From contig JAYKYS010000005.1 of the NCBI GenBank assembly GCA_036924285.1, forward strand, positions 8,680,001-8,744,000: a DNA stretch of 64,000 nt. The letters run 5' to 3'. A program made the translations under genes and the position numbers. The stretch comes from Asterella californica. Lineage: Eukaryota; Streptophyta; Marchantiopsida; Marchantiales; Aytoniaceae. Shown one piece after another: positions 1,820 to 38,164 of this stretch. The first letter of the stretch is position 1, and each line of letters starts with the position of its first letter. The notes under the pieces were generated by a model that was not told where the DNA came from, did not search any database, and worked only from the letters and a program-made list of their open reading frames with translations.

Positions 1820-2409
1820 ACGTATGGTGTTGAGGTTTTGTTTTCAGTCCCTCAAGTTGGAGCAATTGGTTCTTGGTTGGTGGTGTGTTCGTGGTCGACA
1901 TTAGGTTTGTTATCACGGGACTCTCGCGAGGTTCCACGAGAGATTTCTCTAGAGTACATGGTGAGTTCACACAGAGTGGTTGTAAGTATCAGTCAATGAT
2001 ATCAGTTTCAATGACGAGAGATATCATTTTGATCTGTGTTAGTGGTACTTTTCACGTTGTTATCACATCGATCGTGTGAGATATGGACGAGATCTATGAG
2101 ACCTCGGCGATACTCAAGTGCAATGGACATCATCAAGCTTGATGATTCCATCCAAAAGTTCGACAGTTGGTGTGATATGCAACAGATGCGGAACCAACCC
2201 GTAGTTGTTTACTCCCTTCATGGCATGAAAGAGATTTTTTCAAAACTTGGAGGGGCTGCCGATGCACTGTAGTCCCTCAACAGTCTTATCGATCAACTAC
2301 CCCTCAATCTCTCAACCTCCACGATAGTAATTGATCATCGATTAAGATCCGATTAAAGACTTTTTAGACTTTCAAGATATATTGGAACAATCTCGAGTAT
2401 AAATGTTGC
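1820..2409. other. Decayed sequence between retroelement pieces
   Basis: No supportable gene. Two short open stretches on plus (1,873-2,079 and 2,036-2,272) lack recognisable motifs. The second (peptide start SMRPRRYSSAMD, ending in KLGGAADAL) could be a gag-like remnant, but this cannot be shown by eye. Confidence 0.4.
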
Positions 2410-2740
2410 TCATCAAACTTCAACGCCACTTGACGCACTTCTTTTCGTTGCAGATCTTCATCAAAGCTTTCACAATGAGCGGATGACCGTGTTCACTCTT
2501 AGCATTCCTTTCAGAGTTGTAGGCAGTTGTCATTGACAACTTCACTCCACACCTTGCAAAGAATTCACGAGCCTCATATGCATCTAGTTCTCCTTGATCT
2601 GAGTGATCTTTCTCACACATCCATATTGACAAACAACCTCTTCCAAGATAAATTTACATACCCGTTCAGTTGTCTTTGTCTCAAGCGTCCTACTCTCAAC
2701 TTGATTTGAAAGATCTACTCGAGCAAGTACCAAGTACCTC
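2410..2740 (-). pseudogene. Ty3/gypsy integrase core fragment (second)
   Basis: Read on minus, this piece corresponds to 36,930-37,160 plus 37,390-37,460 of the full-length element. It contains the second catalytic Asp region (DQGELDAYEAREFF) and the third-acid region (NAKSEHGHP), joined without interruption as TTAYNSERNAKSEHGHP. It therefore preserves the uninterrupted ancestral state of the site that carries an insertion at 37,155-37,385. It is a fragment without zinc finger or C-terminal domain, and non-functional. Confidence 0.8.
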
Positions 2741-3495
2741 ATCTGCTGTACAAAAAATATACGATTACTATATATAGTGTCCCAAGATTTCTCCTTTAGC
2801 CCATTGTAGCATAAAAGATTTCGTTTCTCAAGAAGATTACACTAGTTACGCTGCTCTAAGTTCTAAGATCTGTCCAAACTCACGAACACTCGAGATTTGT
2901 CTAGAAATCTCTTTTTCTCACAAAAACCACAAGGCTTCCAGATCCTTCAGAAGGTGCTCTGGACCTTAACATACAACTACTACTTAAAATATCACACAAT
3001 TACCCACTGAGAAGTCTGAGAAGACGATTTCTACTTCCAAGTCACGGCTTCCAATCTTCTCACGATGGCTTCCAGAAACAATTCTCGGCTTCTGGGGGTT
3101 CAATTCGGCTTCTGACATCTCCAGAAGACCGTCTCAGCTTCGTAGATGCCAAATAACTATTCCCTATCACACATTGCTCTTACAATTTCTAACAAGGTTA
3201 GACTAATCGTAGGATGTATGCCCCCTATAGCCTTTCTAGACTTTTGTCTGCAAAAACTGTCTTCTGACAACACTACAATGACATTCACATCCACTGATAC
3301 TCAATAGAAGCTTCAGAAACCCAGTAGAAGAAGATAGGAAGAGGGGAAGATGAGAGAAGAGAGAGAAGAAGAGAAAATCCAAACAAGAAAAAACAAGAAG
3401 AAAAGGAGAAATTAAGATTCCGACAAGCTTCTAGTCCGGATCTTGACTAACAACTCATCCTTGCTTGTAGTAAATTGGGAAAGAAGACCAAAGAT
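2741..3495. other. Non-coding stretch with purine-rich tract
   Basis: No gene seen. It is rich in CTTCTG/CTTCCAG/GAAGAC words at about 2,930-3,160, and has an almost pure purine tract at about 3,310-3,410. The same word usage continues through the coiled-coil ORFs at 3,500-6,640 and recurs at 40,280-40,530. This suggests the untranslated part of one retroelement family (inference). Confidence 0.4.
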
Positions 3496-4757
3496 CTACT
3501 TACAGTTACATTGTCTTCCATCGAGGATGACGTCTTCTGCTGTGGAAGAAGGCTTCCGGCTTCTTTTGTCTTCGTTCCGAGTACTCTGACTCAGGGGACC
3601 AATCTCCATGGATAGTCCGTGCGTGGATCCGAAGTGCTCCACTGGATGAGACAAGCTTGGACTCTGCACAGCTTCTAACAATCACTGCCACTCAACAAGA
3701 AGGCTTCACATGCGCAATTGGATATGAATTCGATGAAATCCACTCCCTAGAGGACATGGACAAAGCTTCTACAATCAAATCTGAAATCCAATCCCCGAGA
3801 AGAAGTTACATTGGCTTCTGGAACCTTACTCCTTCCACTTTTTGTCACTATCTCTTGACACATCAGCTTAGAAGCAGGACTGCATGATGATGCCGTTCCT
3901 TGTCTATGCTATCTACTACTGTCTACATCTTTACGATCCTCTGCTAGGAGCGGAGGTGCAGACCTACTCTATGTAACCAAAACTCTGCGCATGTAGTGTA
4001 TGTGGGTGTGTGTACTCACATGTGTGTGTAAAATCCTACATTGACATCGACTTTATATAATTTCCTTGAGTCATAAGAGAGAGATCCCTTCCAATCGCAA
4101 CTCACAGCCTAGGGAAAGATGGGGCGCTATCAGAAGACCACCACCTCCTAGGCTTCGGTTCCTCCTCTGAGTTTGAAAAGTACTTTTCTTCTCCTACCGT
4201 TGCTTATCCTGCCACATGGACTAAAAATAAAAAGAGAGTTGTCCATCTTAAAACAACAAACTCTGATTCTTACAAAAATAGCTAAGGTAATTAACAGCTA
4301 ACTACTTGTACTGTATATTCCTGATCGTCAGGTGTGATCTCCATGAGATCCTCACCTGCATGACCTTCTAATTTGTCTTCTAGCACTATGGGTGACCCTA
4401 CTGGTACCTCTGGTGCGGCTAAGATGGCATCCTCCTCAGTACTAATCATGTGCGCTTCTGCCATGGCTTCGGAAGCCAGAAGAGGTCATTGGGAAGCTGA
4501 ATTCACTTGTGCTTCGTGGCTCTTCTTCGCCACATGCTCGACACTGGAGCTGGGTGGTCTCACAGGGATCAGAGGTAGTCACCTCCTCCACTTTGAATAC
4601 TTGGGAAGCCATCTCTTCTTCCTGTCTTCCAGAAGACGTCTTGTCTTCCGGGGCCTCTTCGCTATTCTTCTCGACTTCCAACGTTGTAACCATCAAATGG
4701 ACATCGAGGTCGAACTCCTCTTTGTCGAGGTCCTCCACAATTGCTGATCCTGGTGCA

Positions 4758-5555
4758 CTAGAAGATGTAACTGCATGTTGTGAAATCGAGGGAAGATCGT
4801 AAAGAGTCTTCAGACCCTCGATCTAGGTAGCGGAACATGCTCTCCTTGCAGTCCACCAACATCTCCCTAGAAGCGTCGTCCCATGAACGAGCTAGGGTCG
4901 GAAGCTTCCTTCTCCTAGTGAAGTTGAACTTCTTCCGAAGCGCTTCCTCTGTCTGTGCTATAATCTCCTTGGCTCGGGCTTCTGCTTCTTCCCACTGCTT
5001 CTTTTCCTCTACAGCCTGGGCTTCCACGGCTTCCCGCAGTGCACTCCAAGTCGTCTTTTCCTCTGCGAGATCAGTTAACTTACCCCTGATCCGCAGAACT
5101 TCATGCTCGTACTGCTGAGGTCGCATTTGCAACTCCTGGTTGCTCTTCCGCAGCTGTGCCAACTCCTTGACCGAAGCAGAAGCTTCCGCCTTATGCTTTG
5201 TTGCAATCTTTTCTGTGGTACGGAGGTTGGCTTCCAGAGCTTCCAGCTTCTGCTTTTGGGCTTCCTCCTGTTGGATCAAGGTTCGAAGACCAAATCCAGG
5301 CTGCAGCGATTTCTCTTGAGCCATCGTGTGCTTCTCCACCAACTCCATCGCTGGTTGGATCTCCGAACTGAAGAAGGCACTGAACTCTTCCATGCGTTTT
5401 CTCGCAGAAGACAAGTTCATACCCACAAATAGATCTGAGGTGACTTCCTTGTCTTCCAGAGGCATGGATACCTCTTCCACCATAATGATCTTCTCCTTCA
5501 GTGTCCGAGAAGATGCTACCCTCAATGTCTTCCGAGGTGAAAGATCTCTTCTCAC
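4758..5555 (-). pseudogene. Coiled-coil protein, unknown (265 codons)
   Basis: This is the longest open frame of the 3.5-6.6 kb block. Residues about 1-55 are basic/mixed (MRRDLSPRKTLRVASSRTLK). Residues about 90-215 are a long Glu/Lys/Gln/Ala heptad-like coiled coil (for example EEAQKQKLEALEANLR, then ELAQLRKSNQELQ). The C-terminus has no known motif. The frame is open but its neighbours are interrupted, so it is probably one segment of a formerly longer protein. No enzymatic function can be assigned; a structural gag-like role is a guess. Confidence 0.4.
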
Positions 5556-5669
5556 CGCAAAAGCAGTCCTCTTTTCTGCGCATCCTCTGGTCGCAGTCGG
5601 AACATCAACCTAGGTCTTGAGGAGTCTTCATAAGACTCCATATGGTCGCAGAAGCTATCTTCTTGACAA

Positions 5670-6632
5670 TCATGGTGTTGGGCATGTCTTCTTGCGAATT
5701 CGACTCGGATCCGAAAAGAATGGTAGAGGAGGATGTACTCTTTCTAAGCACGCTCTTAAGATCCATCCTCTTTGGTGACGACGCGTCTTTCGTGTCGCTG
5801 GAGTCATCTTCTCACACCATAACCGTCTTCGATGAGTGTCTGGTTCTATCTGAGGCGCTAGAGTGGGAGAGGAGACATGACAAATGCTCAGTCTTCTTCT
5901 TCCAAGGTCTCTTCCTTCATATCTCGCTGTCTCGTTAGTCCATAATTGGCCAACTGGTTCTCCTTTAGGCCCCCCTTGGACACATACATATAGTAGAAGA
6001 AAGAGATGAGATGTCCTCTTGCTGGTGTGCTCAAGTACACTAACTTGGTTTGGACGTAGGTGTGGAAGAAGGTGCCCCAGTTGACAACATATCCGTCCCA
6101 AATAGCTTCCAGGAACTCCATGTCCTGGTCTCCAAGGTATGTAACCTTGGAGACGTGGTGAAGGTACAACTTCCCCAGAAGATGCTTCTTTGGCTCCCGG
6201 TAGACTTTCACCTTCCATCCATTCCTCCCATGTCTATCTTCTAGGAAGAGACGTGTAGTACTTATAGATACATGCCATTTCCTTGAGATTATCAGCAAAA
6301 TCTTCTTCTCCAGCTCATATCCACGGTTCTCTGATTCATGCCGGTGGAAAGCTCGGCGTCACCACTCCATCGTCCACAAGGATGGTCTTCCTTGGGCGAC
6401 TCCTGCCTTGACACATACACGGTTGCGAGGAGGTAATGCTACCCAGACCTCTTCTATAATACCTTGGTCCACGAGATTCTAGTCCCATGTGAAGAAGTCG
6501 AGGTCCAACTTCTTGATGAAAGGTTTGACCTCGAGAAACTCTGATTAAGATAACATCAACCCTCGAGGATGCATCGACATTGAACTTTTGTTGCACTAAA
6601 CCACACATACTTGTTGTGAGCCTAAGACTCAA
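5670..6632 (-). pseudogene. Upstream part of the gag-like coding region
   Basis: Three frames are used successively. The frame at 6,298-5,888 has the most protein-like composition: aromatic-rich, with motifs VNWGTFFHTY and SFFYYMYVSKGGL. The 6,632-6,336 frame precedes it and the 5,938-5,670 region follows it. Frame changes and stops show decay. The region has no zinc knuckle and no recognised catalytic motif. It may be the N-terminal half of the coiled-coil protein at 4,758-5,555. Confidence 0.35.
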
Positions 6633-6956
6633 TCTTTACTAGGCCCTCACAGTCCAGCTTCCACTCTCAAAATACGAATCTAGTCTTCCAGAAGACAGCT
6701 ATTTTGTCTTCTAGAATTCTAACAGTGCTTCTTAAGTACATTACGTCTTCTGAGCTATATCTAAGCAATCCTAACTAAGCAAGGCATCGCATGGATTCCT
6801 AAGAAAACATTCCACTTTGCAATTCATCTTACTTCCTAATAGACTAATGGCAGCATATAGTTTAGTTGTCACTTGACCTGGTGAGTTATTGGAGGACAAT
6901 GCACATGCGGAGGATACTCCAATACTAGAGGAGATGGAGTCCTTATCCAATATGAG

Positions 6957-8129
6957 TGGGTAGTTCCTTCAATTTTGGATGTCCCACTTTGGAGTTCGAG
7001 TTAAGAATTACAGCAGTATGTTGATCAGTTGGTACAAGAGGTTTGGAAAGAAGCTTTTGTGCCGTCAATAGAGGAGTTGAGTGATGTTCTCACTAAACTC
7101 TTGTCACTTTGTCGTCTTTTGATATCACGCTCATTGTTTGGCAATATTCTCAAGAGGGTGTGTGTGTGTTGGATCTATTGGAGAGATCATCACTAGTTTG
7201 ACAGCGATGTTGCAGGTCGGCAAACCAGTATAGCGATACTTGTATGTGGAGAGTAATGAGATAATAAGACGAGTCTCATTGTGTCATGTGGTGCGATTGT
7301 TATAGAGATACCTTGACCTACTATCAATGTCAACATTTTGAGGATACCAACAAGCGTTATTATCGAATATTTTGCTGCTAGAGACGTGGGACTTAGTACG
7401 AGAGTAAGCTCTATACATTTGATGATTGCGGGTTGGTCATGTCAGGACCATACACGTGTAAGAACAAGACATGGTCTACATGATCCACGATCTCAAATGT
7501 TCTAGGAGATATTACGGATTCTACGACATCTTCATATTCATAGTACATGTTTTCCAACATATATCTTGGAGAACATGCCATTGTTAAGTGTCATTCGTCC
7601 ATGGATGATGATGGATGTGCATCAAGTGCGGTCATGGATTAGACCGGCTGTATTGTTGGATGTAGTGAGAATGGGATCTTGTGCACATCATCCACGGTGT
7701 ATGATGGACTAACTTGTTACATAAGGAGTTGTTGAGGAGGGCATATGATGGAGGTCACGGCACACCTTGAGTTGATAGCATCTTGGATGCAAGACGAAGA
7801 TCTCAAGTAGTGAGAGATGTTGACAAGTCACTCATGGTCGTGGTGAACCTAGTGGGATAACCTAGAGCGGCATTGTCTACACTTTTGAGCCTCTTTGGTT
7901 CCCTAGACTAGTATGGGATGCTAGTTTGTAGTTGTTGATGGAGCTCAATACCGATGAGAGAGAGCGTGCGATGGGGTTTCTGACAAGTACGACGGCTGTG
8001 ACTTCGGTGTCAAAGGAAGCACGTCGTCATGTGTTGGATCAAGCAATGGACTTGAACTGCTTGACCTGGATTGTGAGCCTTGGTTTGGCTGAGCATCGTC
8101 AGATGCGATCGATAAGTATTATTGCTTGA
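6957..8129 (+). pseudogene. Retroelement-encoded C5-cytosine DNA methyltransferase (broken)
   Basis: C5-MTase motifs are seen in the canonical order. Motif I-like: VLDLF at 7,166-7,179, then a frame shift into GEIITSLTAMLQVG (7,180-7,221). Motif IV: AGWSCQD at 7,428-7,448, where the catalytic Cys is kept but the usual Pro of PCQ is Ser. Motif VI: ILENM at 7,563-7,577, for the usual ENV. Motif VIII-like: AHHPR at 7,683-7,697. A target-recognition-like stretch follows (VDSILDARRRSQVVRD). Motif IX/X: ELNTDERERAMGF then LDQAMDLNCLTWIVSLGLA (7,938-8,094). The family transfers a methyl group from S-adenosylmethionine to cytosine C5. In-frame stops at several sites and the shift in motif I make this copy inactive. 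A conserved segment upstream (DVPLW, QLVQEVWKEAFVPS) belongs to the same polyprotein. Confidence 0.85.
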
Positions 8130-8329
8130 GCGCTTTGTCTACCGAGACGACAGAGATAAAGACTGCAGGCGTCATCCGTTGGCACCATGAGATGTGACGA
8201 GAGATCAGTTGGAGATTGTAGCTAAAAGCTACGATGTCGTGGTGCGGACATGGTCGAATCTATTGATGGTGAACAGGAGAGGCTTGCTCATGATGTTGCT
8301 CAATAGCAACCAATTGCTTTGTCCTCTAC

Positions 8330-10600
8330 CTCTGATATGATAACAAAGAATACTTGGGAGCTTGAGATTGGAACCAAGCTTATAGGAGGAGAGAGACGAA
8401 GAAGACATAGTCTCCTGAAGAGTTACAAGAACTGTTTTGTCGTCACTATGAAGAATTTGGATACCTTGAATGGATCAAATTTACGGATTGAGTTGACTAG
8501 TGACACACCAATTTTTTGATGTCCTCATAGATACAGTGATATGGAGAGAGCTCTAATCCGAAGTCGGACTTAAGACTTGTTTGAGACTAGTTTGGTAGAG
8601 ATATCTTATGAAGAGTATGCATTTGTCATTGTTATGCCAACCAAGAAGGATATGTATAACAACTACACAGACAGGAGGATGTGTGGAGACTACCGTCCTA
8701 TCAATTGGTAGACGAAGTTTGATAAGTATGCCATGTCTACACTAGAAGAGATCTTTGATGCAGTCGGGCATGCAAAGGTCTTCAGTACGTTGGATCTTCA
8801 AGCAGGATACCATCAGTTGCCGATCATAGAGGAGGATAGGACGAAGACATTGTTCTGGGAGGTTGATCCTCATGGTGTCGTGATGTGAATTCTTTCACAT
8901 AGTAAATAATTCACCTCTCAGTTAGAAGTTAGTCTCTCTGGGGATCACCGTGGTATGTTCAAAAGTTACAAACAGAGTTGCAGGCGAGAAGTTACTTGGA
9001 GTTCTTCTACAAGATTTATGATACCGAGAAATGTGTCATAAAGTGAGTTCGAAAATTATATTTAAGATTTCTCTCATGTAGATTGTAGTATGTAGTATTT
9101 ATTTGCATCTTAAAATTTACAAAAAGACCATGTCTAAAGAAACTTATGGCAATTCGTGTTAGTGAAGAAAAGACGAAATACCACGCTTTAGTAGCATATC
9201 AGCTTAGAAATTGATCTCGAACCAGTTGTGAGATTGGCTTCCGTGGGTAGCTAAGTAAACATGTATGGAGGAGGTCCAAGGATCAAATCCCCTCAGACTC
9301 ACAACCGGCTTGGAGTAGATTGACCCCTTCGAGAGAATATGTGGGACATCAAGTTACCTAGGGGCGAGACACTAGATGTCCCTCAAGCGTATTGTGAATG
9401 CGAGATGCCTCCGTCTACTCTTGCACTAGTGCAGTCATCTGATGTGGATGCTAGAGAGAGATTACCGCCGGATTTCCGAAATGGATCCTATGCTAGAGGA
9501 CTAACTCGCCTTCGGGTTGTCAATGTCACTAGTACGAATTCGGTGAGACCTTCTAAGTCCTTAGGTAGCGAGATGGCATTAAAGATACTCCAAGTCGGTA
9601 CCAAATCTTTTGTAGAATATTATAAATCTAGTCATGTTATTCACTTGGGTCAAGTGATTTAACTAATACTTGAGGAGATACTTATGACGTTTTGAAGTTC
9701 AAGGGGGCTGGAGAACGACAATGATGATAACTCGGGCTCCACGTGTCAAAATGAGGTGATTCCCATGACTAGAGGTAGCCGTGGTGGAGTTACTTCGGGT
9801 GGAGGTGTCAGATGTTGACTGAACGGTCGACTCGGTGTTCGTCCGTATAGATGAATCTGCAAAGGCTTGTGAACTAGTCTTCTTTCGTGTTGGATTTTTA
9901 TTAGTGATTTATTTTTCTACTGCCATCTGTCTAGGTCATCTTTTATCCCTGCCAAGTGACAGTGAAGGTTACGTAGGGTGGAGGACAACCCAGAGGGGGT
10001 GTACTCCAAAGGAGAGAATTCTAGGATCATTATCGTAGTGTGGAGAATTGTCTTCGTGAGCAGAGATCATCGAGTAGAGAGAAATCGAATAGTTAGGAGA
10101 GGTTTTACACATAAGTTACGTTTGAAAGGAGTTTTTGACTGATCAGAGTTTTGACATCGAAGGATTGAGAGGAGAGGACAGAAACGAGTAGAGAGGAGAC
10201 CTACAACTTGTACGCACATTTTTCTGAATAGAAAACGAGAAGCTTCTAGGTGAACGTGTTGGTGCTTCGCAGGAGCAGTTTTCTGATCTCCTCCAGATCG
10301 ATATCAACGTGATGGATTATTTTCTTACGATCCGTATTCCATGTGTGGTTTTCTGCCCTCCTTTTCACGATAGTATCACAGCTAGAAGGTTCTGCCCTTC
10401 CTAGAAAACTCTCGCCTCAACAACAGCAAGGATTGTTTATATCAATGATGATTCTTACTGTTGAATAACGCACCTGCCGAGTTTCATAGAGTTATGGACA
10501 GAATCCTAACAGGATTGGATTTTGTTCGGTGTTACATTGATGACATCCTAATCTTAGTGCTATAATGGAGGAGCACGAGAGACATTTAAGTTGGTGTTTG
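8330..10600 (+). pseudogene. Gypsy reverse transcriptase, split by an insertion
   Basis: A linker with KSYKNCFVVTMKNLDTLNG precedes RT. RT motifs: VMPTKKD, RMCGDYRPIN (8,676-8,707), then VFSTLDLQAGYHQLP (8,781-8,825) with the first catalytic Asp, ending at DPHG (8,865-8,876). After the insertion the frame resumes at about 10,450 with LNNAPAEFHRVMDRIL and CYIDDILIL (10,532-10,558), which carries the catalytic DD box (YIDD, for the usual Y[V/I]DD). A TAG sits between the RPIN and DKYAM blocks. The element is clearly Ty3/gypsy by motif spacing. It is dead. Confidence 0.85.
8876..10372 (+). mobile_element. LTR-like insertion inside RT
   Basis: The RT frame is interrupted between DPHG (ends 8,876) and LNNAPAEF (about 10,450). 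The inserted block starts TGTCGTG (8,876-8,882) and has CACGATA at 10,366-10,372, the same two terminal motifs as the 2-kb LTRs at 29,886 and 38,165. The next bases (10,373 on, GTATCACAGCTAGAAGG) resemble the common plant primer-binding site that pairs with initiator Met-tRNA. So the block is best read as one LTR plus leader of a second gypsy family, truncated before its coding region. The internal sequence is not alignable by eye with the 2-kb LTR. An open frame at 9,339-9,662 has no recognised domain. Confidence 0.5.
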
Positions 10601-12350
10601 CGCAATTGAGAGCTCATGGTTTGAAGTTGCATCTTGAGAAATGTAAATTCTTCTAGGATCAAGTGGAGATCTTGGTTACACTACCTCCTCAGAGTTGAGA
10701 GTACAACAAACAAGGGTTGAGGTGATTGCACGCATTTCATGTCTTACAGATGTGAGTCGAGTTTGAGCATTTGTTGGTTTGACGAACTTATATCGTCGGT
10801 ATGTGAAAAGATTTAGTGCAATTACAAAGCCTTTGACCAAGTTAATCAAGGTGGACCAAGAGTGGCAGTGGGGAGATGAGCAAGAGCGAGCTTTTCTAGA
10901 CCTCAAGGATAGGTTGACATCTGCTCCCATCTTGAAGAGACCTATTGGGGACGTACGTTCCAACTGCATACTGATTGGAGTATGTTGGGACTTGGAGCGG
11001 TGCTTGCACAAAAGGTTGATGAGGAAGTGAGTTCGTTGTGCGTATGCTGGTTGCTCCAACAATTCGATAGAGTCAAAGTATAGTTCATACGAGAGAGAAT
11101 GTTTGGTTGTAGTGTGAGTTGTAACACACTTTCGCTGTTATTTGTTCCAGAACCTCTTTACTCTCATTAGTGATCACTAGCCGCTCAAGTGATTAATGAA
11201 GTCTGACAAACTTACGGGAAGCTTGCACGATGGGCTCTACTTCTGCAAGAGTACGACTACCAGATAGTTCATAAGCATGAGATAGCGAACAAAGATGTAA
11301 ATGGTTTGAGTAGAAATCCATGTACGAGTCAGGAGGATGATACAAGAGCTCGTATGTTGGTTCTAGATGATCATGTGACAGCTGTCATGAGTCAGGGAGT
11401 AGATGATGAGTCCTCAAATGCGAAAGATAATGATGTTCAATTGATCAACAAGACATCCATGATGATGTGATTGTTATGGAATATCTATGTATTGACGTCG
11501 TGGTGGGCACAGTAAGTGCTAAGGAGCAGATGATATTCTTCAGCGAGCCAAGAGATTTCGGTGTGAAGAGAAACACGTTCTTCAGATGTGGACAGATGAT
11601 AGAGAGCGTGTTGTACCACATTCGTCGAAGAGCACAATTACTTCCACTGTCCACGAGGAGTTGAGGTTTTTGGAGAGAAGCGCACGTATAGCTTACTCCA
11701 AGGACCATATTGGTGATACGATATGCACACCGATGTGCAACAATTTGATACGATGTGCGATCTTTGATCGAATACGAACATCATTCGTGCTCCTACTCCA
11801 TAGTTACATCCCTTACCAATTATGAAATTAGGATATGGTGGACTTTGGACTTTTTGAGACCTTTACCGTTGACATACGACATGACCGATATATGTTGGAC
11901 GGTGGAGTATTTTTCCAAGTGGATTGAGTTGGTGGTACTACTAGACAAGAAAGTGAGGATGTAGCCCATGCTTTTCTAGATCGAGTGTTGAGTCTTTTTG
12001 GTGCACCAGCCAAAGTGTTGACTGACCAGAGTATGGAGTTCCATGATGAGTTTCAGCCTTGTGTGATCAGGCGCTTATTGATCATTGTACTATATCTCGA
12101 GATCACCCTAAGGTTGATGGCTCGGCAGAAAAAGTTGTTCAAACGGTGAAGAGAGAATTGCGCAAGTATGGCTTGTAGAAGAGTAATCATGAAAATTGAG
12201 ATCTTCAGTTACCATGGTTGGCTATGGATTATAGTTTCAATCAACAAGCATCCTTTGCATCCTTCTCACAATACTTTCTGCTATACGATCGAGAATCAGA
12301 TTTTCTTGCAGTCATTCGTCGTGATTCTGCTGAGGTTGTGAATCTTGATG
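10600..12350 (+). pseudogene. Gypsy RNase H and integrase (decayed)
   Basis: The RT connection/RNase H part reads FVGLTNLYRRYVKRFSAITK, LTKLIK, WQWGDEQERAFLDLK (10,767-10,910), then YERECLVVV and a tether to about 11,300. The integrase zinc-finger region is eroded (KRTYSLLQGPYW at about 11,679-11,715). The core has VEYFSKWIELV (about 11,905-11,935), FGAPAKVLTDQS (about 11,999-12,034, second catalytic Asp) and CDQALIDHCTISRDHPK then DGSAEKVVQTVKRELRKYGL (about 12,065-12,176, third acid). Frame changes and stops occur throughout. The order RT-RNase H-IN is the Ty3/gypsy order. Confidence 0.8.
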
Positions 12351-12360
12351 ATCGAATATG

Positions 12361-12890
12361 TGAGTGAGAGTATATTCTCAACGACCTGAGATGTTTCAGC
12401 GAGTTATGTCGATGACATTTGAGAACTTGTCGATTGCTCAACATAGAGATATGTTACGGTATGCGACTATTCGAGGAGGAGGTTATCGACCATCGATTCG
12501 TAAGTTCCATCCTGACGATTACATGTCAACAAACACACCGATGACATTGGATGTGATTGCAAGACGTACTATCTTACGAGTGTGTGAGGTTTTACTGTCT
12601 ATTGTTCTCGTGTTAGAAGACCGTGATGGTGTAAGTTGGAAGTATCATGTGCGTAATTGTGCATCATGTCATCTTCTTAATATTGACGGTTCTGTGGATC
12701 AAAGCTTGGCGATTGTACGTGCAAGCTTGAGGTGTATGTTTTATGGATTTACTAGTGGAGCGATCACTATGTTGTTATATGATGGTTGTTCGAGAAGATG
12801 ACACATGTCACGTTTGACACCACCTCTCATCATAGTTTCTTAAGGACGGTGGATATGTCCTTGTTGCAATTAGCGGGGTAGCTCATTTGA
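12361..12890 (+). pseudogene. Integrase C-terminal region and PHD-like finger
   Basis: The frame at 12,364-12,801 has FENLSIAQHRDMLRYATIRGGG, a linker ending in CASCHLLNIDGSVDQSLAIV, and then a C4HC3-like finger. Its Cys/His positions are CMFY at 12,733-12,744 (second Cys replaced by Tyr), YDGC at about 12,778-12,789, HMSRL after a TGA in place of Trp, and WICPCC just before a TAG at 12,871. The spacing and the MLLYDGC and PPL-x-GRWICPxC signatures are those of PHD fingers, which in intact proteins often bind histone H3 tails. Here several ligands are lost and two stops intervene, so it is a remnant. Confidence 0.6.
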
Positions 12891-13035
12891 CCTTCACGTG
12901 ATATGGATTGCAGACAGATGATTAACGATGCGATGATGTAGCACCCGGTCTCTTGATATTCGCACTGAAGAAAGTGCATCTCACATAATTGGATCAGATG
13001 ATTATGTGGAGCTTGAGAGATCAAACCGCTAGCTA

Positions 13036-13150
13036 GGGACGATTGTGGTATACTTGTGTATGTGTATGACACTTTGTGCTTATTATGTATATGTGGTTTG
13101 TAGTTTAGACAACGATGTATGTTGTGTAGTGATGTGTATGTGCACGACAG
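13036..13150 (+). repeat. Direct repeat, copy 1
   Basis: About 110 bp of TGT/TATG-rich sequence (TGTATGACACTTTGTG, then TTTGTAGTTTAGACAACGATG) is repeated with a few differences at 13,438-13,546. The copies are about 400 bp apart and follow the PHD-like end of the gypsy element. They may be a duplication within the element's 3' untranslated region or LTR. Confidence 0.7.
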
Positions 13151-13437
13151 GTGTCATGTCATTTTCACCAGTTGTTAGTTCGACCAGACTGCGAAGTGAC
13201 ACGTGTCGTTAGTACCGTTAGCGGAGTTTCTTGAATTGAGATCACCAAGGAGTATATTTCGAGTTGGAGCTTGTAGTCTCTCACTTTTTCTCGAGTTGAG
13301 TCTTCAAGCTCTTAGCTGTGGTAGATGCGCTTAGTAAGTAGAACTAGGATTCTCACAATCACATAGTGGGTTTGGTTTGATTCGTGAGTGATATGTTGTC
13401 CGTTGGCAAGTGTTTATGCATGTGTTCTCAGATTATT

Positions 13438-13546
13438 TTGATATACTTATGTATGTGTACGACACTTTGTGTGCTTGTTATATGTATGTGATTTGTAGTT
13501 TAGACAACGATGCATGTTGTATAACGATATGTATGTGCACCACAGA
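13438..13546 (+). repeat. Direct repeat, copy 2
   Basis: Second copy of the repeat at 13,036-13,150. It shares the TTTGTAGTTTAGACAACGATG core and ATATGTATGTGCACNACAG at its end. Differences are scattered substitutions and small indels, so the duplication is not recent. Confidence 0.7.
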
Positions 13547-29885: not shown

Positions 29886-31892
29886 TGTCGTGTTGTGGAC
29901 CGGCTCCTACCTAAAATTTAGACTTCGATGCTTGTCGCTCCAAAGACACTCATGAGAAAGACAAGCTAGGCCCTAGCTTACGGGCTTTTGGCATCATTTT
30001 GGATCTCTATTTTCATCGCATAGATGGATAGAGCTCGTTGTCAGCTTTTCATAGACACTTTGTCTACTTCGTTTGGATGCCTAGTGGAGAAGTTACAAGA
30101 CTCGAAAGATGGAGAAAACAAGCTAGATCCCAGCTTACAGGTTTTTGGCACAACTTCGGATCTTCGCTTTTATCATATCAGTGGATAGAGCTCCTTGCCA
30201 GCTTTTCATAGGCACTTTGTCTACTTCGTTTGGACGCCTAGTGGAGAAATTACAAGATGGAGAAAACAAGCTAGGCTCCAGCTTATCGGCTTTTGGTACA
30301 ACTTCGGATCTTCACTTTCATCACATAGATGGGTAGAGCTCGTTGTCAGCTTTCCATTGGCATCTTGTCTACTTCATTTGGACATCTACTGGAGAGGTTA
30401 TGTAATTAGAAAGAAGGGAAAATCAAGCTAGGCCTTAGTTTACTTGCTGATTGGGTATTTGCAGCCTCAGGCGTTATATTAAAGATGCAAGGGGCCTGCT
30501 TCCTCATTATTGGAGAGAACTGGTACGTATAGAGACTGACGTAAGGGGACAGCTTAAGGGGTCAGCTTGTTTCTACGATCTGTCGGTGGACGTTTTGGAG
30601 AATTGAGAAGTCTAATACACGCGCGCAAGGTGTCATTGGGTTCAGATTTGTGCAAGCTACGTGTGGGTTAAGACGGTTCTTGAAGAGACGGATCGGGGTG
30701 TGTGTATTGGGAGAAATTGAGACGCAAAGAAAGGATTTTTGGGAGCTTCAGTGATCTGTGAAGGAGAGTTGGACCGTTCAGGCCGTTCCGGAGTCCAAAC
30801 TTGCTATCCTTAGATCCATCGGGATCAGAACAACGAGTTCTTCAGGAAATTGAAGACGATACCAAGTTTCATCGGACGGTTTGGGAGTTCTGAGTGAAAT
30901 TGGCTCACAAGGAAGCGCTTGTGTCAAGTTTTTATCGTCTGCGACCTGAGATTGGGTTGTTCTTCACAATCGGTGAGCCAAGCTCTTCGTTCTTGGTGTC
31001 TACTCGACCAAGGAGTCTTCATCTACGCATAGGAGAAGACAGTACGTGGATTAGATTGTTGGTTTGGATGAGGTGAGCGAGTTTGAGCCGCAGGGAGTCT
31101 ATTTACGTCAAATTTTGGCAACCTGCGACCAAATTTCTTGCATGGTTTTGCAAGGGGAACTCCAAACGACTTCTTTGGGGTCTCGTTCGGTTCATGATAG
31201 CTAGATCTACTTGTAAGAGAAGACATATATCAAATCAAGCGATTCGGTTTGAGCGGTGTGTGCGGTTTGAAGCTGTAGGGAAGAGTTTTTGAAGGTTCAG
31301 TCACCTGCGACCAAAACCGACGATATCTCGACTGTCGAGAGTTGGATCTGAAGGTTTCTTGGGTCAACGGAGTCAGGGAAAGAGACCCTATCGACATCTG
31401 AAGATTGTTTGACGAAAAGAGAAAGTTCTCAAATAGGTCTTTTTTGGTTTCTTCGCTACGGGTTTTGCTCTTTTGAGTTTGATAGAGATCTAGTTGGCTA
31501 TATACAGCTTGTGGTAGCTAGCTTTGGCTAAGAGTTTGTACATGGATGTGGTTTGACTTGGGTTTCAATCGTGTGATACTGATGCAGCTCTTTTTGTTAG
31601 CAAAGGGAAATTTCTCTTGCTTTGAGCTACGCTTCGGTGGTTTTGGGTCAGGGTTGTGATTCAAGGGTTTGTTTTAGGGGCTTGAAGCATGTTACAGATC
31701 ACTCTGGTCTGTTTCTCAGTTTTGTGCTCTTAGGAGAAAGATCCGACTGTGTACGTACATTTGGAGTTGGAATATATTGCAGCACTCGTTTTCGTGGTTG
31801 TCTTTCTCTATCTTGTCTCTGTTCAGCACACAACATTCAGCACACAACCTCGCATTTTCCTGGACATCATTCATACAATATCCGACACGATA
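29886..31892 (+). repeat. 5' LTR of the full-length gypsy element
   Basis: 2,007 bp, from TGTCGTGTTGTGGACC to ATATCCGACACGATA. It contains three tandem units of about 148-157 bp starting near 29,963, 30,119 and 30,267 (each beginning CAAGCTAG), plus a partial fourth near 30,424. One unit lacks about 9 bp (ACTCGAAAG) compared with the others. The motifs for promoter and polyadenylation were not resolved. Confidence 0.92.
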
Positions 31893-31912
31893 CGGTGGTG
31901 AACTCGACGTGA
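31893..31912 (+). other. Primer-binding region after the 5' LTR
   Basis: The sequence right after the LTR (CGGTGGTGAACTCGACGTGA) is where the tRNA primer should pair. It does not match the initiator-Met type TGGTATCAGAGC, so another tRNA is used. Which one cannot be told without a tRNA search. Confidence 0.45.
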
Positions 31913-31967
31913 AGGTCTGGGGTGGAATTTCTTCTGTGTGTGAACTTTGAAGAAGAGATTGGCAGTC

Positions 31968-33014
31968 ATGAGTGGGGATGGGAAAGATGATGGAGATAGA
32001 GCTAGTGGTCCAAGTGGGTTGCCGAAGGTGCAGCTGGATCCGACGACTGCATCGATGTTCCATGCTTTCACTATGTTCTTACGGCAGCAACAGCCTGATG
32101 AGCGGAAGGAAGCTTTGGCAACAAAGGCGCTACAAGCGATAATCAGCAGGATTGACCAGTTTGATGGAAGAGATGTCTCAAGATATCTGAGGCATTATGT
32201 GAAGGAGATGGAGCTGAACCGGGTATCAGAAGATGAGATGATTGAGACGTTTGAGTTAGCAGCAGCTCCAGAGATTAGAGATCATGTTAAAATGCTAACG
32301 AAGCATTTTAACAAGGATTGGGAGACATTTGCTCGTGCCTTGATGGATGAGTACTTCTTGGAGGACCCTGATCGAGTCACCAAGAAGTCATTCTTGGAGT
32401 GGGTTGAGCAACCAAAGAAGGGTTTACAAGCTACTGAGTTGCTCAGAGAGTTTGAGAAGCAGTTTTCACGGCTGACCAAGATGGAGAAGTTGACGTTGCA
32501 GTCCAACAAGACAGAGCTATTTCTTTGGGCTGCAGATGAGAAGTTGCAGGAGAAGCTAGAGGTACTTCTGGAAGACCGGGAGGAGGACGATGGATTGATC
32601 AGTAGTTGGAAGAAGGTTGAGGAAACTGTTGGTCTGCTTACCAAGAGGGAGCGGAGACGAGAGAAGGTTCATGTTAGGAGACTGGCGCCAACACCTACAG
32701 CTGTAACACCTGTTCCTGTAGTCCGACCAATGGTTCCTGTTGCTAGACATGTAGTATCAGTTGCTCTAGTTGCTCCAGTTGTTCCATTTGTTCAGGCACC
32801 TATGGTATCTCCGGAGAAGGATGATTCAAACCTTGAGGAGATTTTGCGTGGAATAAGAGATCTGCAGATCAAGCTCACAAGATTGGAAGAGAAGAGGTCT
32901 ACAAGCGGAGCAAGATCGATTGAGAAGCAAGGCTGGATCCAGCGGTGTATCTGGTGCGATGATACCGATCACCCATGCAGAGATTGTAAGGAGTTCATTG
33001 ATATCTTACAGTAA
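31968..33014 (+). pseudogene. Gypsy gag polyprotein with CCHC zinc knuckle
   Basis: Starts at ATG 31,968 (MSGDGKDDGDRASGPSG) and gives 348 residues to a TAA at 33,012-33,014. A helical capsid-like region (about residues 30-215) contains QFDGRDVSRYLRHYVKEME and TRLTKMEKL-type helices. A Pro/Val-rich linker follows. Near the end is CIWCDDTDHPCRDC, an exact C-x2-C-x4-H-x4-C zinc knuckle for RNA packaging. After the stop the same frame continues (33,096-33,485; 33,501-34,043), so the TAA probably interrupts a longer gag-pol frame. Confidence 0.85.
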
Positions 33015-33095
33015 GGGGTGATCTTCTAGAAAGATGGGAAGGTAGCGCTGAGGGATATTGGTGCACTTCTTCAGACCAACTTTGGTAGAGGAGGG

Positions 33096-34043
33096 ATGAA
33101 GAAGTTGGTTGAGGACCACTTATCAGCGCAAGCAGTTGCAATGGTGGAAGCTGGAACCTATGGGACAAGAGTTGAGGATCAAGCTGAGAGAGGTTTTAAC
33201 GGGCAAGTTGAGCCGAGTGGATTGTGGTCATCTGCCATCTCCATGAAACAAAAAGGAAAGATGACACGTGAGACGTTGCTGAGAACAGCTGCTACGATCC
33301 GGAAGGATATTGGATGGGAGGATCCGATAGAAGCTCTATCGGTGCATGCTTACATCACCAAGAATCAACACGAAGCGTTGTTGGAAGAGAAGAGAAGGCG
33401 AGATTCAGAGAATGCAGGGGAAGGAACTTCTTCCAAGAGACAGACTCGAGGGGAGAAGGTTCGTCAAGAGCTTCGAGATGCATGAGCTCAAGATCTATCG
33501 ATGGATGATGCTCCTTCTCCATCGAAAGAGAGAGCAAAGGAGTTTCAGAAGGAGAAGGGTAAGCCGGCTGCATACAAACTACAGTCGGACATCGAGGCTT
33601 CAACAGACTTGAAGGGAGTCTTGGAAGATCGCATTCTGAATGCGAAGGTGGAGTTTACCTTGAGAGAAGTGTTGGGCCTTGCTAAGCGTGAGTTTCATGA
33701 TGTCATCGTCGATGTCATCAAACGGAAGCGACAGATTACGGGTGAGACTGGTTTATCACATGCCTTGGATACTAGGATGTCTGTGGATGAGGAGACAGAG
33801 CTTGCAAAGTGCAATGTTTATTCTTCAGAGGAAGAAAAAGATCGAAGGCGCAGGGTATATTTTGAGGATGAAGAGGAGGATGAGAAACAAAGCTCGAGTC
33901 ATTACAGTCTTAGTCATTGGGCTCGAGCTACAACGGAGACGTTGGTGAGAATCAGAGACTTGGATGAACCGGTGGTTGCTCTGATCGATCATGGATCAGA
34001 AATCAACATCATGTCGAAGGAGTTGTACAAGAGGAAGAAGTGA
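33096..34043 (+). pseudogene. Gag-pol spacer and aspartic protease
   Basis: Two open stretches in the gag frame (33,096-33,485 and 33,501-34,043), separated by one TGA. The spacer includes QKEKGKPAAYKLQSDIEAS, which recurs in a fragment at 60,044-60,244. An acidic stretch follows, then VVALIDHGSEINIMSKELY. In that block the catalytic Asp is in D-H-G-S, the variant of the retroviral-type DTG/DSG box seen in this branch of gypsy elements. A TGA at 34,041 ends the frame. Confidence 0.75.
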
Positions 34044-34100
34044 TCGATCGACACAGAGCATGGGTGGGTCGTAAGAGCAGCCAACAACACAAGAGGAGAC

Positions 34101-35600
34101 TTGTATGGAGCTTGTCCAGACATCAGAGTGCGCGTAGGTGATGTTGCTATCGAGCAAAACTTCTTTGTTCAAGAAGCAACATCATACCCGCTTATTCTTG
34201 GTCAACTTTTCATCATAGCAACTCGGATGGAGACAAAGGTACTGGACAACGGATCTGCTTATGCTAGGATTCGAAGTCAAGATGAGACGAGAGCGATACA
34301 ATTCTTGAATGTACCGTCCAATCACGAGCGCAATCGAGATCATCTGAGGGAGAAACCACTTCCAAGGGTGAGTGAAGAGTTCAAGGATTTTCGTTGAGTA
34401 CGACTATAGAGCGGGATTGTGATGGTGTGCAGGAGAAGATACTCTCGCTTGATGGAGATAGTGTTTTTTGTACATGGTTTGTTGGGTTTTCAGAGTGTGG
34501 GATTGCTAATTACAAGAAGATAGAAGAGATGAGGAGAAAAGAACAAAAACGTTTGCGTGATGTTGAGTTGATGATGAAAGAGTTGGGTGTGCTAGAAGGG
34601 GATGAATGGATTTTTGGTGTTTATGAAGAGGATGGGTTGGAGGATCCTTTGCGAGAGATCATGTCTATTGGATGGGAGGATATGGATAAGGTTGTGCAGA
34701 TTCATTCAAGGGAGGTCTATTCGACGATCGAATCATTCCGTGCACCGGAGGTTCGAGTTGAGATAAGGTACAAGATAGTGGATAAGAAGATAAAGTCAAT
34801 TGCTGGTCCTTTGCTAGATGATACTAACCAACAGATGGATCGGGCTTCAAGAGAGAAGAGTTTGAGAGATCCTGCAATGATAGGACACAAGTTCACGAAG
34901 AAGACCTTGAAGAGCTGAAGATTGGATCTGATGGTCTCTTCTACCAGAAGAGAGGATGTGCTTCAAGGAGATGCTTTCACGACATGGGAAAGAATTTGCC
35001 TTTGAACCACATGAGATTGAGTGTGTAGACCCGTACGTTGTTACCCCGATGGTTATCTTCACGGTATCGCATGTGTCATGGAACCTGAGACCAATTCCAG
35101 TACCGCGGGCTCACTTGCCTAAACTAGTGGAGTTGCTGAAGGAGAAGACGCGGATGAAGATCTTGGAGCCGTCGTTTGAACCGTATTCGAGCAGATGGTT
35201 TACAGTGTCTAAGAAGAATGGATCGCTGCGGTTCATCCAAGACATGCAACCGGTGAACGCAGTAACAATCAAAAATGTTGGGGTGGGACCGATTGTGGAT
35301 GAGTTTGCTGAAGCGTTTGCAGGAAGAGCAATTTACTCAATGGGAGATCTTTACTCAAGGTATGATCAGTTTCAACTAGCGGAGGAGAGCAAAAGCTTCA
35401 CGACAATGAGGACACCTTTGGGGTTGGTTAGGATGTGTACCTTATCATAGGTAGCTATCAACTCGGTAGCACACATGATGAAGGGGATGAATCGAGTTCT
35501 AAGGGACTTCATCCTTGAAAAGACGATGCCGTTCTTGGATGACATCCCCATCAAAGGATGTGTACATGATGAGAAGGATGAAGCATTAGACCAGAGAGGG
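34101..35600 (+). pseudogene. Gypsy reverse transcriptase
   Basis: The protease tail (PLILGQLFI, 34,190-34,215) and a variable linker precede the RT. RT blocks are KEKTRMKILEPSFEPYSSRW, FTVSKKNGSLRFIQDMQPVN, IYSMGDLYSRYDQFQLAEES (catalytic Asp), FTTMRTPLGLVRMCTLS, then a stop, AHMMKGMNRVLRDF and FLDDIPIKG with the catalytic DD. A TAG at 35,448 separates the last two blocks. Domain order and motifs are those of Ty3/gypsy. Not functional. Confidence 0.88.
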
Positions 35601-35869
35601 TGTCGGCGATATGTCAAAGATCACATAGCAGACTGTGAGAAGATCCTATCTCGACTTGAGGAAGTTCATCTCACGCTGTCAAGTATGAAGTCTACATTTG
35701 AGGTTAGAGAAGTCTTGATCGTTGGTCATTTGTGTGGATCTTTTGATCGGAAGCCAGACCCGAACAAAGTGGATGCAATTGGGAGGATGAAGGAGGTTTG
35801 CAACTCGTTGACAAAAGTAAGAAGAATTTTGGGTGCTTGTGTATTCTATCACATTTGGATTCCTCATAA

Positions 35870-36534
35870 TGCGCATGTGACAGATTCATTATATGGGTTG
35901 TTGCGTAAGGGTCATAAGTTCAGATGGGAGGAAGAGCATACTGATGCGGTGCGGAAGCTGAAGTTTTTACTATCATCTCCTCCAGTTTTGGGAAGGATTG
36001 ATTGCAAGGGTGCCAGGCCGGTGGTTCTTATTGTAGATACAAGTCCAATTGCAATCGGATGGGTAGTAGGATAGGATGATGAGGATGGAGACAGATTTAC
36101 GATTAGGTTCCGAGCGAAGGTGTCAAGTGCTCGACAACGTGCTTATCCGCAAGTGGGATATTGTTTCAGTCATGAAAACTGAGAAAGAGTATTTGATTGG
36201 AGCAGTAGTGGTGGTTGAAATTGATTGCTTGTCGTTGTTAAGGATGATCATGAATTGTTCAACTCCTGATATTACGATGTTACGATGGATCGCATATATC
36301 AAGTCGTTGAACCCAGAGTTTAGACATATCGCAAGGAAGAATAATCCGATGACGAATATGTTATCTCGAGCTCGATATGATGGGGAGGATGAGATGATTG
36401 AAGACATTGACCACGTGGATGCAGAGTTCTATTCGATTGCACAGACAGGAAGGGAAGATGAGTTATTTGTTGAAGGGTTGTATGATGGTGATTTGCTTGA
36501 TATCGGGAGGTACCTTAGTACGATGGTTAAGTAG
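35870..36534 (+). pseudogene. Gypsy RNase H region
   Basis: KFRWEEEHTDAVRKLKFLL and VVLIVDTSPIAIGWVVG (first acidic residue of RNase H) end at a TAG at 36,072. After a frame change there is FTIRFRAKVLSARQRAYPQ-type sequence (with VGYCF), and later a tether (36,245-36,534) with MLRWIAYIKSLNPEFRHIA, the spacer before integrase. The frame changes at about 36,070 and 36,180 break it. Confidence 0.7.
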
Positions 36535-36579
36535 ATAGGTTGGACGAATTAGAGGTTTCGGAGAGTTCGAAGAAAAGCC

Positions 36580-37620
36580 TACAACTTCATGTTGCAGGAT
36601 GGGTTCCTTTGGAAGCGACCAAAGCAGAAAGGTGGGGTACCGCTACGAGTGATTTGCAACAATGAAGATCAACAGAAGTTGCTCAAGGCGTTCCATGAGA
36701 GTCTTTGGGCTGGACATCGAGAGATTTGGGCAACTTTTACAAAGATGAAAGAGCGGTATTGGTGGAAAAACATGTACATGGATGTTGTATCTTTGTGGAG
36801 TCTTGTTTGACATGTCAGATGTATTCGAACATCCGACATCGTGACGGATTACACCCGACTTATCCGTTGGCAATCCACTTCAAATGGGTGGTAGACTTGG
36901 TGATTATGCCGGTTGGATTGTGGCAGATGAGATACTTGGTACTTGCTAGAGAAGATCTTTCAAATCAAGTCGAGGGTAGGGTGCTTCGGACAAAGACAAC
37001 TAAAGGGGTATGTAGATTTCTCTTGGAAGAGATTATTTGTCGATATGGATGTGTGGGAAAGATCACTGCAGATCGAGGAGAGTTAGATGCACATGAGGCT
37101 CGTGAATTCTTTGCAAGGTGTGGGGTGAGGTTGTCACTGACAACTGCTTACAACATCCTATTCTTTTGTTATCCCAAATTTTATTAAGTGGAACAACTAG
37201 CAACACCAGTTCAAATTCAAACAATAATTTATAAAAGAATCTCTGACCGCGTGCCTGTTGAAGAATGAGCCGGCGACTCTCAATTTCAAGAAAAAAATAA
37301 AAAAATATCGAGATGATTGAAAAAATGGTTGGAATAAACAATTTATATTCGTTTTATTGAAGCTGTTGTCGATTCGGAATACCGCCCGAAGGGAATGCCA
37401 AGAGTGAACATGGTCATCCACCCATTGTGAAGACTTTGATGAAGGCCTGCAACAGAAGGGTGCGCGAGTGACCTCGACTCTTATCATTTGCGTTATGGGC
37501 AGATCGAACGACGCATAGCTCAGTGACAGGTTATATGCTAGTGGAACTCATCATAGGTCAGAAACCTATCATGTCGATTGAAGAACACGTTCTGACATGG
37601 AGTGTGTTACCTTGAGAAGA
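36580..37620 (+). pseudogene. Gypsy integrase, split by a 230-bp insertion
   Basis: The zinc-finger part has FHESLWAGHRE (two His) and ESCLTCQMYSN (two Cys). The core has WVVDLVIMPVGLWQMRYLV (first Asp), GKITADRGELDAHEAREFF (second Asp) and LSLTTAYN, ending at 37,154. After the insertion, GNAKSEHGHPPIVKTLMKA (third acid, about 37,391-37,450) continues the protein. Frame shifts occur at about 36,810 and after 37,470. The IN fragment at 2,410-2,740 shows the undisrupted order. Confidence 0.85.
37155..37385. other. Insertion containing a plastid 23S rRNA fragment
   Basis: This block of about 230 bp interrupts the integrase reading. Positions 37,241-37,279 (39 bases) match the conserved plastid 23S rRNA segment CCGCGTGCCTGTTGAAGAAT with its GAGCCGGCGACTC continuation, apparently without mismatch (from memory of plastid 23S). 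The flanking AT-rich parts (37,155-37,240 and 37,280-37,385) are not 23S and may be other plastid pieces; this is unproven. It is best read as nuclear plastid DNA captured during break repair. Confidence 0.75.
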
Positions 37621-37624
37621 CAAT

Positions 37625-38077: not shown

Positions 38078-38151
38078 GACGATAAGACGATGAACGTGCC
38101 GATCCACTCCTTGGTTGGTATCTCTGGTGCATACCAAAAGATGCACAGGTT

Positions 38152-38164
38152 CAGAGGGGATGGA
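38152..38164 (+). other. Polypurine tract
   Basis: CAGAGGGGATGGA lies immediately before the TGTCGTG start of the 3' LTR. This is the expected position and composition for the plus-strand primer in gypsy reverse transcription. Confidence 0.65.

Follow-up and report, generated by a model that had tools for sequence, protein, structure and literature searches.

Retrotransposons that carry a captured cytosine DNA methyltransferase (DNMT) have been published, in the account given by PMC5890265, for one charophyte and for element families of Symbiodinium. The charophyte case, KnitGypsy-Dnmt3 of Klebsormidium nitens, has repeats structured as in a DIRS element and domains typical of Gypsy (Fig. 4 legend); its DNMT is described within the Pol polyprotein open reading frame (ORF) and treated as an independent acquisition in that lineage (PMC5890265). 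SymbioDIRS-Dnmt3 and SymbioLINE-Dnmt likewise combine a retroelement with an acquired cytosine DNMT: CG methylation in yeast is described for the SymbioDIRS-Dnmt3 enzymes, the SymbioDIRS repeats follow the order A-coding-B-A-B, and for DIRS elements the authors proposed in 2018 that cDNA becomes methylated as it is reverse-transcribed. DIRS-class enzymes from earlier reports are described there as Dam-like adenine methyltransferases (PMC5890265). A 2025 paper refers to reports, from ‘streptophytes and dinoflagellates’, of DNMT3s that sit within ‘LTR Copia and DIRS’ elements (PMC12344493). Here, we describe a retrotransposon family of the liverwort Asterella californica that joins a Ty3/gypsy-type Pol to a DNMT3-class methyltransferase (MTase), represented by a decayed copy in a 64,000-nucleotide stretch of contig JAYKYS010000005.1 (positions 8,680,001 to 8,744,000; hereafter the window). 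This identity and architecture are firmly established; that the enzyme would methylate the element's own new DNA copies is our preferred reading, to which we assign a probability of about 0.6.

With KnitGypsy-Dnmt3, as described, the Asterella element shares Gypsy-type coding domains, a DNMT3-class enzyme, an intronless multicopy state, DIRS-like repeats and purifying selection on the DNMT. A DNMT3-bearing gypsy is already known from Klebsormidium, and the bryophyte element differs from it in variant features. Eight young copies were read over 10 kb (L021-L028, with tails L029-L036; Pfam was run on L021 only). All eight contain an ORF1 of 1,370 aa. A single stop codon then leads, without a change of frame, into an ORF2 that measures 1,041 aa in seven of them and has one additional stop in L024. 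The element is about 10.0 kb long (10,006 bp in L021), with the domain order Gag-PR-DNMT3-(TAG)-RT-RNaseH-IN-PHD (PR, protease; RT, reverse transcriptase; IN, integrase). In L021, two CCHC knuckles and a protease-like LLDSGAQ, recognised by eye, precede a PF00145 match of 34.8 bits in ORF1, while ORF2 matches RVT_1, RT_RNaseH, Integrase_H2C2 and rve in order and ends in a C-terminal PHD finger (PF00628, residues 996-1040, E=6.7e-11).

The first-pass annotation, made from the window alone, had proposed an MTase carried inside a Ty3/gypsy polyprotein and placed before the RT. This order is found in 8/8 of the ten-kb copies and the enzyme does belong to the element, but a conserved in-frame TAG places it with Gag and protease, outside the Pol ORF. 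Could MTase and RT fragments merely have come to adjoin in the window through separate insertions? The window copy is broken and its PF00145 score falls below the cut-off, which would fit this artefact; the artefact is nevertheless refuted, because in eight young copies both ORFs stand at the same places in one unit with common ends and target duplications. The relatives P0009 (Riccia) and P0017 (Marchantia) also continue from MTase into RT, and we give separate insertions practically no chance.

The placement of the enzyme departs from KnitGypsy-Dnmt3: whereas the DNMT is described there within Pol, here it stands ahead of the TAG in 42/42 copies. In all 42 the junction reads TAG CAR YYA (TAGCAGTCA in 40, TAGCAATCA and TAGCAGTTA in one each), which represents conservation and not 42 independent events because the copies are related by descent. 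The stop between ORF1 and ORF2 of L021 is TAG, and the decayed copy in the window has TAGCAACCA. Among the best 100 of 1,519 junctions in the genome (no mismatch outside three open bases), 96 have TAG, 2 have TAA and 2 have AAG. In tobamoviruses and other cases UAG-CARYYA, situated between two in-frame ORFs, is described as the motif for type I read-through (PMC5382211). The same motif in the same position is found here in a retrotransposon, and read-through at the element's TAG is very probable. The MTase precedes the TAG and therefore would be made with Gag, the RT only via read-through. The Marchantia proteins P0025 and P0026 stop 72 aa past the MTase match (73 in this element); P0040-P0050, P0052 and P0053 stop 79-128 aa past it, where the ends of metagenome proteins could be contig ends. 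P0055, by contrast, is a single 2,358-aa frame without a stop.

The repeats at the ends of the element are split. Repeat A1 (294 bp) stands alone at the 5' end and B1-A2-B2 (109-294-109 bp) at the 3' end, so that like long terminal repeats (LTRs) at both ends are absent; A1 and A2 are 99.66-100% identical in the young copies. The element begins with TGTCAC, ends with ACGACA and is flanked by a 4-bp target duplication in 8/8 young copies. Because of these TGT...ACA-type ends and duplications, which match those of LTR elements, we conclude that it inserts as DDE-integrase elements do; no tyrosine recombinase family was matched by Pfam in L021 ORF1 or ORF2 at E<=0.1, and rve is present. The repeats are DIRS-like although the insertion mode is of the DDE-integrase type. 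DIRS1-like retrotransposons share terminal repeats that are not simple LTRs, and a methyltransferase domain is described in their Pol, but they have a tyrosine recombinase and no target duplication (PMC3266345), in contrast to the DDE integrase, 4-bp duplication and C5 enzyme found here. The DDE-integrase gypsy Pol also separates the Asterella element from SymbioDIRS and SymbioLINE, which are tyrosine-recombinase or LINE elements. The PHD finger, TG/CA ends and 4-bp duplication are seen here, and the term ‘PHD’ is absent from the main text of PMC5890265. At the B1-A2 junction (L029, 126-142) lies a palindrome (GACAGCTGTC) that resembles the joint of both element ends plus two bases; it may bear on the origin of the split repeats.

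How abundant is the family? In the 516.7-Mb assembly (773 contigs), the ORF1/ORF2 junction pattern, with two mismatches allowed, matches 735 + 784 = 1,519 sites and its backward control none, pointing to some 1,500 full or partial copies; were all sites full length at 10 kb, their total would be about 15 Mb (3% of the genome), an arithmetical upper bound. A search based on the relative P0003 gave 4,318 first-look candidates, of which 111 were scored: all 111 match over nearly the full length at 78-79% identity and 91 are without a stop, 39 of these having open frames of 1,367-1,382 aa by hand count.

The pattern of variants among copies shows signs of selection on the enzyme. We analysed 57 copies (42 ranked by protein score and 20 sampled by junction, less the rearranged L062, L063, L067, L069 and L072), with variants polarised on a real copy, L002. 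The ratio of nonsynonymous to synonymous polymorphism (pN/pS) in the MTase core falls steadily with allele count, from 0.78 for singletons (173/73 nonsynonymous/synonymous) to 0.44 for doubletons (44/33), 0.34 for variants in 3-5 copies (28/27) and 0.08 for those in more (4/17); singletons differ from shared variants by Fisher's test (p=5e-5), these being allele-count ratios and not Ka/Ks on the full copy set. The same direction is seen for the 42 protein-ranked copies alone (0.63 for singletons against 0.13 for shared variants, p=1e-4), for 15 junction-sampled copies with L002 (0.72 against 0.39, p=0.017), and in 22 copies for both RT (0.32 against 0.06) and MTase (0.37 against 0.14). In the unfiltered set of 62 copies the core value is 0.99 for singletons and doubletons, while all shared variants give 0.64 (p=8e-4). 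Two values were set aside: that of the tail following the MTase, whose shared variants had a pN/pS of 2.1 on the unfiltered set with its rearranged copies, and the 1,500 nt upstream of the MTase, where 352 singletons in 22 copies suggest misaligned flanks. Catalytic motifs are kept in 47-55 of the 57 copies (AGWPCQG in 51, LENVP in 52). Such a pattern would be expected if the enzyme stays functional in the multiplying lineages, though many copies decay. Stop-free copies with signs of selection are thus present in the same genome, as the first-pass annotation had suggested looking for. Decayed copies (within L001-L076) share MTase stop positions, one site recurring in 6/57 kept copies; these shared stops reflect either parallel decay or the multiplication of broken copies helped in trans.

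Where does the enzyme come from? A protein search with the frame-3 read-through of the window copy found 22 relatives (best E=5.7e-56), the named ones belonging to Marchantia paleacea, M. polymorpha, Calypogeia, Riccia and Sphagnum. Among named proteins, those of Marchantia are nearest (73% identity over residues 900-1310; 70-73% over the MTase region for the closest). Searches with the MTase region gave 55 and 215 matches, many of them single proteins that also include RT, RNase H, integrase and PHD; among the matches listed (120 of 215 in the larger search) were Marchantia, Sphagnum fallax, Haematococcus lacustris, Monoraphidium neglectum and a protein that we take, from its JGI code, to be from Chromochloris. 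The suggestion that DNMT-bearing elements reach this plant's lineage is thereby borne out. Relatives of the element are found in liverworts, mosses and chlorophytes, whereas KnitGypsy-Dnmt3, which we compare by description, is described from the K. nitens lineage; no K. nitens protein was among the organism-named matches listed (120 of 215), most matches being without an organism name.

The best match of the fold predicted for a relative (54-row alignment) is DNMT3A/3B, and the DNMT3 fold is complete; an earlier prediction from a 16-row alignment, with a predicted local distance difference test (pLDDT) score of 37.7, was not used. The catalytic domains of human DNMT3A and DNMT3B (PDB) are the best fold and sequence match and share the motif order, at about 20-26% identity in structural alignments, but here the enzyme is fused to Gag-protease. 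The motifs run I, IV, VI, VIII, IX, X. In DRM (domains rearranged methyltransferase), motifs VI-X precede I-V, an order that the element's enzyme does not have. A host DNMT3-type gene, L089, with at least one intron, is 37% identical to a piece of human DNMT3A (residues 3-110).

The position of the enzyme varies across the family. Among the 189 proteins in which the MTase could be placed, the order is RT-MTase-IN in 103 and MTase-RT in 12; the other 74 comprise 46 that match neither Pol side, 18 MTase-IN and 10 RT-MTase. One of the 12, P0077, scripted as MTase-RT-IN, is doubtful since its match begins only at the end of RNase H. In 18 multi-domain relatives examined, the MTase lies between RNase H and integrase. 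We call the RT-MTase-IN order algal after its few named chlorophyte members, most members being metagenome proteins. One such polyprotein, P0073 (RT-MTase-IN-PHD), is filed under a ‘Minisyncoccia bacterium’ metagenome-assembled genome, a label most likely due to a binning error, and a scan of viral contigs for the algal-type element found no relative. These two sites of the enzyme, PR|RT in bryophyte-type and RNase H|IN in algal-type elements, could mean that related gypsy elements captured a DNMT3 twice or more often, and the 39-row MTase tree is rooted by only two DNMT3 rows, both long-branched and one partial. Yet in that tree a 100/99 branch separates the element MTases from host and human DNMT3, and the algal order forms one clade (100/99; 99 in a larger quick tree) joined to the PR|RT-order P0055 and P0064 (99/98). 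The RT tree likewise separates the two orders, with five bryophyte-type rows in one group (100). Repeated capture therefore appears unlikely to us, and the trees fit one DNMT3 capture followed by one relocation.

What would a retrotransposon do with such an enzyme? On the reading that we prefer, ribosomes would mostly stop at the TAG, yielding Gag-PR-MTase, and occasional read-through would add the Pol extension. The enzyme would then be packed in large amounts with Gag into the particle that makes cDNA and would methylate this cDNA ahead of its insertion by the PHD-bearing integrase. New copies would come pre-marked, either hidden as host-like DNA or quiet enough to spare the host. The element's methyltransferase is probably catalytically active on DNA; that its own cDNA is the main target, self-methylation being inferred, is a tentative view somewhat short of even odds. 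The broadest version, in which DNMT3 was captured once deep in the green lineage, carried by a gypsy-type element from chlorophytes to liverworts and moved once from PR|RT to RNase H|IN, in which a leaky UAG of bryophytes ties the enzyme to Gag and so loads each particle with many enzyme molecules, and in which the element marks its own cDNA with 5-methylcytosine before PHD-guided insertion, is rather unlikely to hold in every part.

To look for a footprint of methylation, 15 junction-sampled copies with L002 were compared with 12 copies of a control gypsy family in which no MTase was seen. Transition rates relative to A/T sites were 3.95 at CG, 5.20 at CHG and 2.69 at CHH in the element, and 3.64, 4.85 and 2.61 in the control, so that the decay of both families looks like general plant-type methylation. 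CHG sites have the most transitions in both families, followed by CG and, last, CHH, an order that suggests strong CHG methylation in this plant. The control family is represented in the window by an element at 29886-40164 with LTRs of about 2 kb (91.6% identical) and no MTase seen; a genome search with its RT gave 3,549 first-look candidates, of which 40 were scored.

Several observations weigh against self-methylation by a selected, Gag-dosed enzyme. The CG-transition excess expected from self-methylation was not found, the element equalling the control gypsy. A supply of enzyme at Gag level cannot be general in the family, because algal relatives have the enzyme inside Pol and P0055 lacks the stop. 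The 57 copies behind the selection values are related, not independent, and 42 were drawn from a protein-score ranking. In the MTase region, 18 of 20 junction-sampled copies are not intact (stop, gap or rearrangement) and 2 have neither stop nor gap in 1,323 nt: most junction-sampled copies are decaying. Finally, the DNMT of KnitGypsy-Dnmt3 showed no activity in yeast, a result described by its authors as inconclusive (PMC5890265). The null footprint does not refute self-methylation, because a one-time mark on cDNA that merges into host methylation would leave no extra footprint.

These points also bear on two other roles for the enzyme. It might act on host DNA, methylating around insertions or generally and altering host chromatin to the element's advantage, with cDNA an incidental substrate. 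A PHD finger, which in other proteins is a chromatin-reading fold, lies at the end of the integrase ORF, and 1,519 junction sites could provide the dosage. SymbioDIRS DNMTs are also described as methylating yeast DNA (PMC5890265). However, even the decay of the element itself shows no excess at CG, and a host target seems to us quite improbable. Alternatively, the MTase could be a non-catalytic part of Gag/Pol, conserved for nucleic-acid binding or for RNA methylation, as its home in an RNA-packing particle, the missing CG footprint and the yeast result for KnitGypsy-Dnmt3 would allow. Against this stand the S-adenosylmethionine (SAM) and catalytic motifs, retained in the proportions given above, and the completeness of the relative's modelled DNMT3 fold, and we regard such a role as improbable too. 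Methylation of the element's own new copies remains our preferred reading.

Turning to the window itself, the copy there is old and dead. It occupies 1909-13545 of the forward strand in pieces (blastn/tblastn with the young copies L021/L029; Table 1), well past the 6957-8129 first annotated, at 70-81% DNA identity overall (73-80% in three long coding pieces, 72% in the Gag piece), with two insertions interrupting it at about 2268-6846 and 8877-10422. The first of these contains frames on the minus strand (one, of 283 aa, matches no Pfam family) together with short antisense stretches of the control gypsy. An LTR-like piece of that family, also antisense, lies at 118-1704, beside the relic's 5' remnant. 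No match to the 5' A repeat was found in the window by blastn with young-copy repeats. B1 and B2 of the relic have diverged by 14%, while B1 equals B2 in three young tails self-compared, and over the full stretch the relic's nearest MTase sibling is 81% identical (43 matches; 40 of 2,070 candidates scored).

Table 1. The relic retrotransposon in the window, feature by feature (window coordinates)
Feature	Position	Strand	Basis
Gag N-terminus remnant	1909..2267	+	tblastn L021 ORF1 residues 4-126 at 1909-2264; blastn L021 2381-2597 at 2058-2267, 72%
Protease-region end and linker before methyltransferase	6847..7102	+	tblastn ORF1 867-1051 from 6847; blastn from 6869, 73%/2,074 columns
DNMT3-class C5 cytosine methyltransferase domain, decayed, frames 2/1/3/1/3	7103..8135	+	tblastn with P0003 and ORF1; homologues to E=5.7e-56
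In-frame TAG in CARYYA context (TAG CAA CCA), ORF1/ORF2 boundary	8304..8312	+	sequence; same site is TAG CAG TCA in young copies
ORF2 start, first part of reverse transcriptase	8307..8876	+	tblastn ORF2 1-190, 69%
Insertion interrupting relic RT, foreign to element	8877..10422	.	L021 continuous at 6895-6898; window jumps from 8875 to 10423
RT remainder, RNase H, integrase (H2C2 and core), decayed	10423..12738	+	tblastn ORF2 188-1040 in pieces; domain names from young copy's ORF2
C-terminal PHD finger remnant of integrase ORF	12739..12867	+	tblastn ORF2 868-1040 at 12355-12867; start calculated from PF00628 at ORF2 residues 996-1040
Terminal repeat B1	13042..13150	+	blastn with L029 B repeat; 85.6% identity to B2 (window self-comparison)
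Terminal repeat A2	13151..13434	+	blastn L029 7-538 at 13024-13545, 70%
Terminal repeat B2 and element 3' end	13435..13545	+	blastn with L029 B; end defined on 8 young copies

The C5-MTase motifs reported by the first-pass annotation are where it placed them and are not due to chance: AGWSCQD from 7428 and ILENM from 7563, followed downstream by ELNTDERERAMGF and LDQAMDLNCLTWIVSLGLA, all in frame 3 of the window translation; the catalytic Pro-Cys has become Ser-Cys in the relic. Relatives align by tblastn to 7103-8135. The proposed PF00145 profile recognises the intact ORF1 of L021, while the relic's frame-3 read-through, at 18.7 bits (E=0.0013), stays below the cut-off of 22, and a piece of the relic RT likewise scores 18.3 bits for RVT_1 (cut-off 29.6). 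The claim that MTase and RT share a frame from motif IV on holds as to collinearity, the RT restarting in frame 3 at 8307, but not as to a single frame, for the MTase shifts from frames 2 and 1 (to about 7401) to 3 (7344-7697), 1 (7705-7902) and 3 again (7902-8135). Stops interrupt every stretch translated: 6 in 6960-7697 (frame 3 throughout), 2 in 7705-7902 and 2 in 7905-8135. Elsewhere in the window, two inverted GDP-mannose 4,6-dehydratase genes (52906-54027, minus strand; 57800-58897, plus strand; 84% DNA identity) each form one unbroken frame.

Three features of the family are without a description in the literature searched: the enzyme on the Gag side, before a conserved leaky stop; DDE-type 4-bp duplications on an MTase element with split repeats; and the relocation of the enzyme between two green groups. 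No report of a DNMT-bearing gypsy in bryophytes was found among titles and abstract openings of open-licence papers. Retroelements are main targets of DNA methylation, yet this one, whose family has multiplied recently in the Asterella genome, encodes an enzyme of the type that establishes such methylation, with signs of selection keeping it. The combination of a gypsy-type integrase and a 4-bp duplication with DIRS-like repeats is also relevant to the replication of split-repeat elements. Should chlorophytes, mosses and liverworts all share the family, its capture of the enzyme would be old and successful and no curiosity, and Marchantia polymorpha would be a plant amenable to studying the benefit that a retrotransposon draws from DNA methylation.
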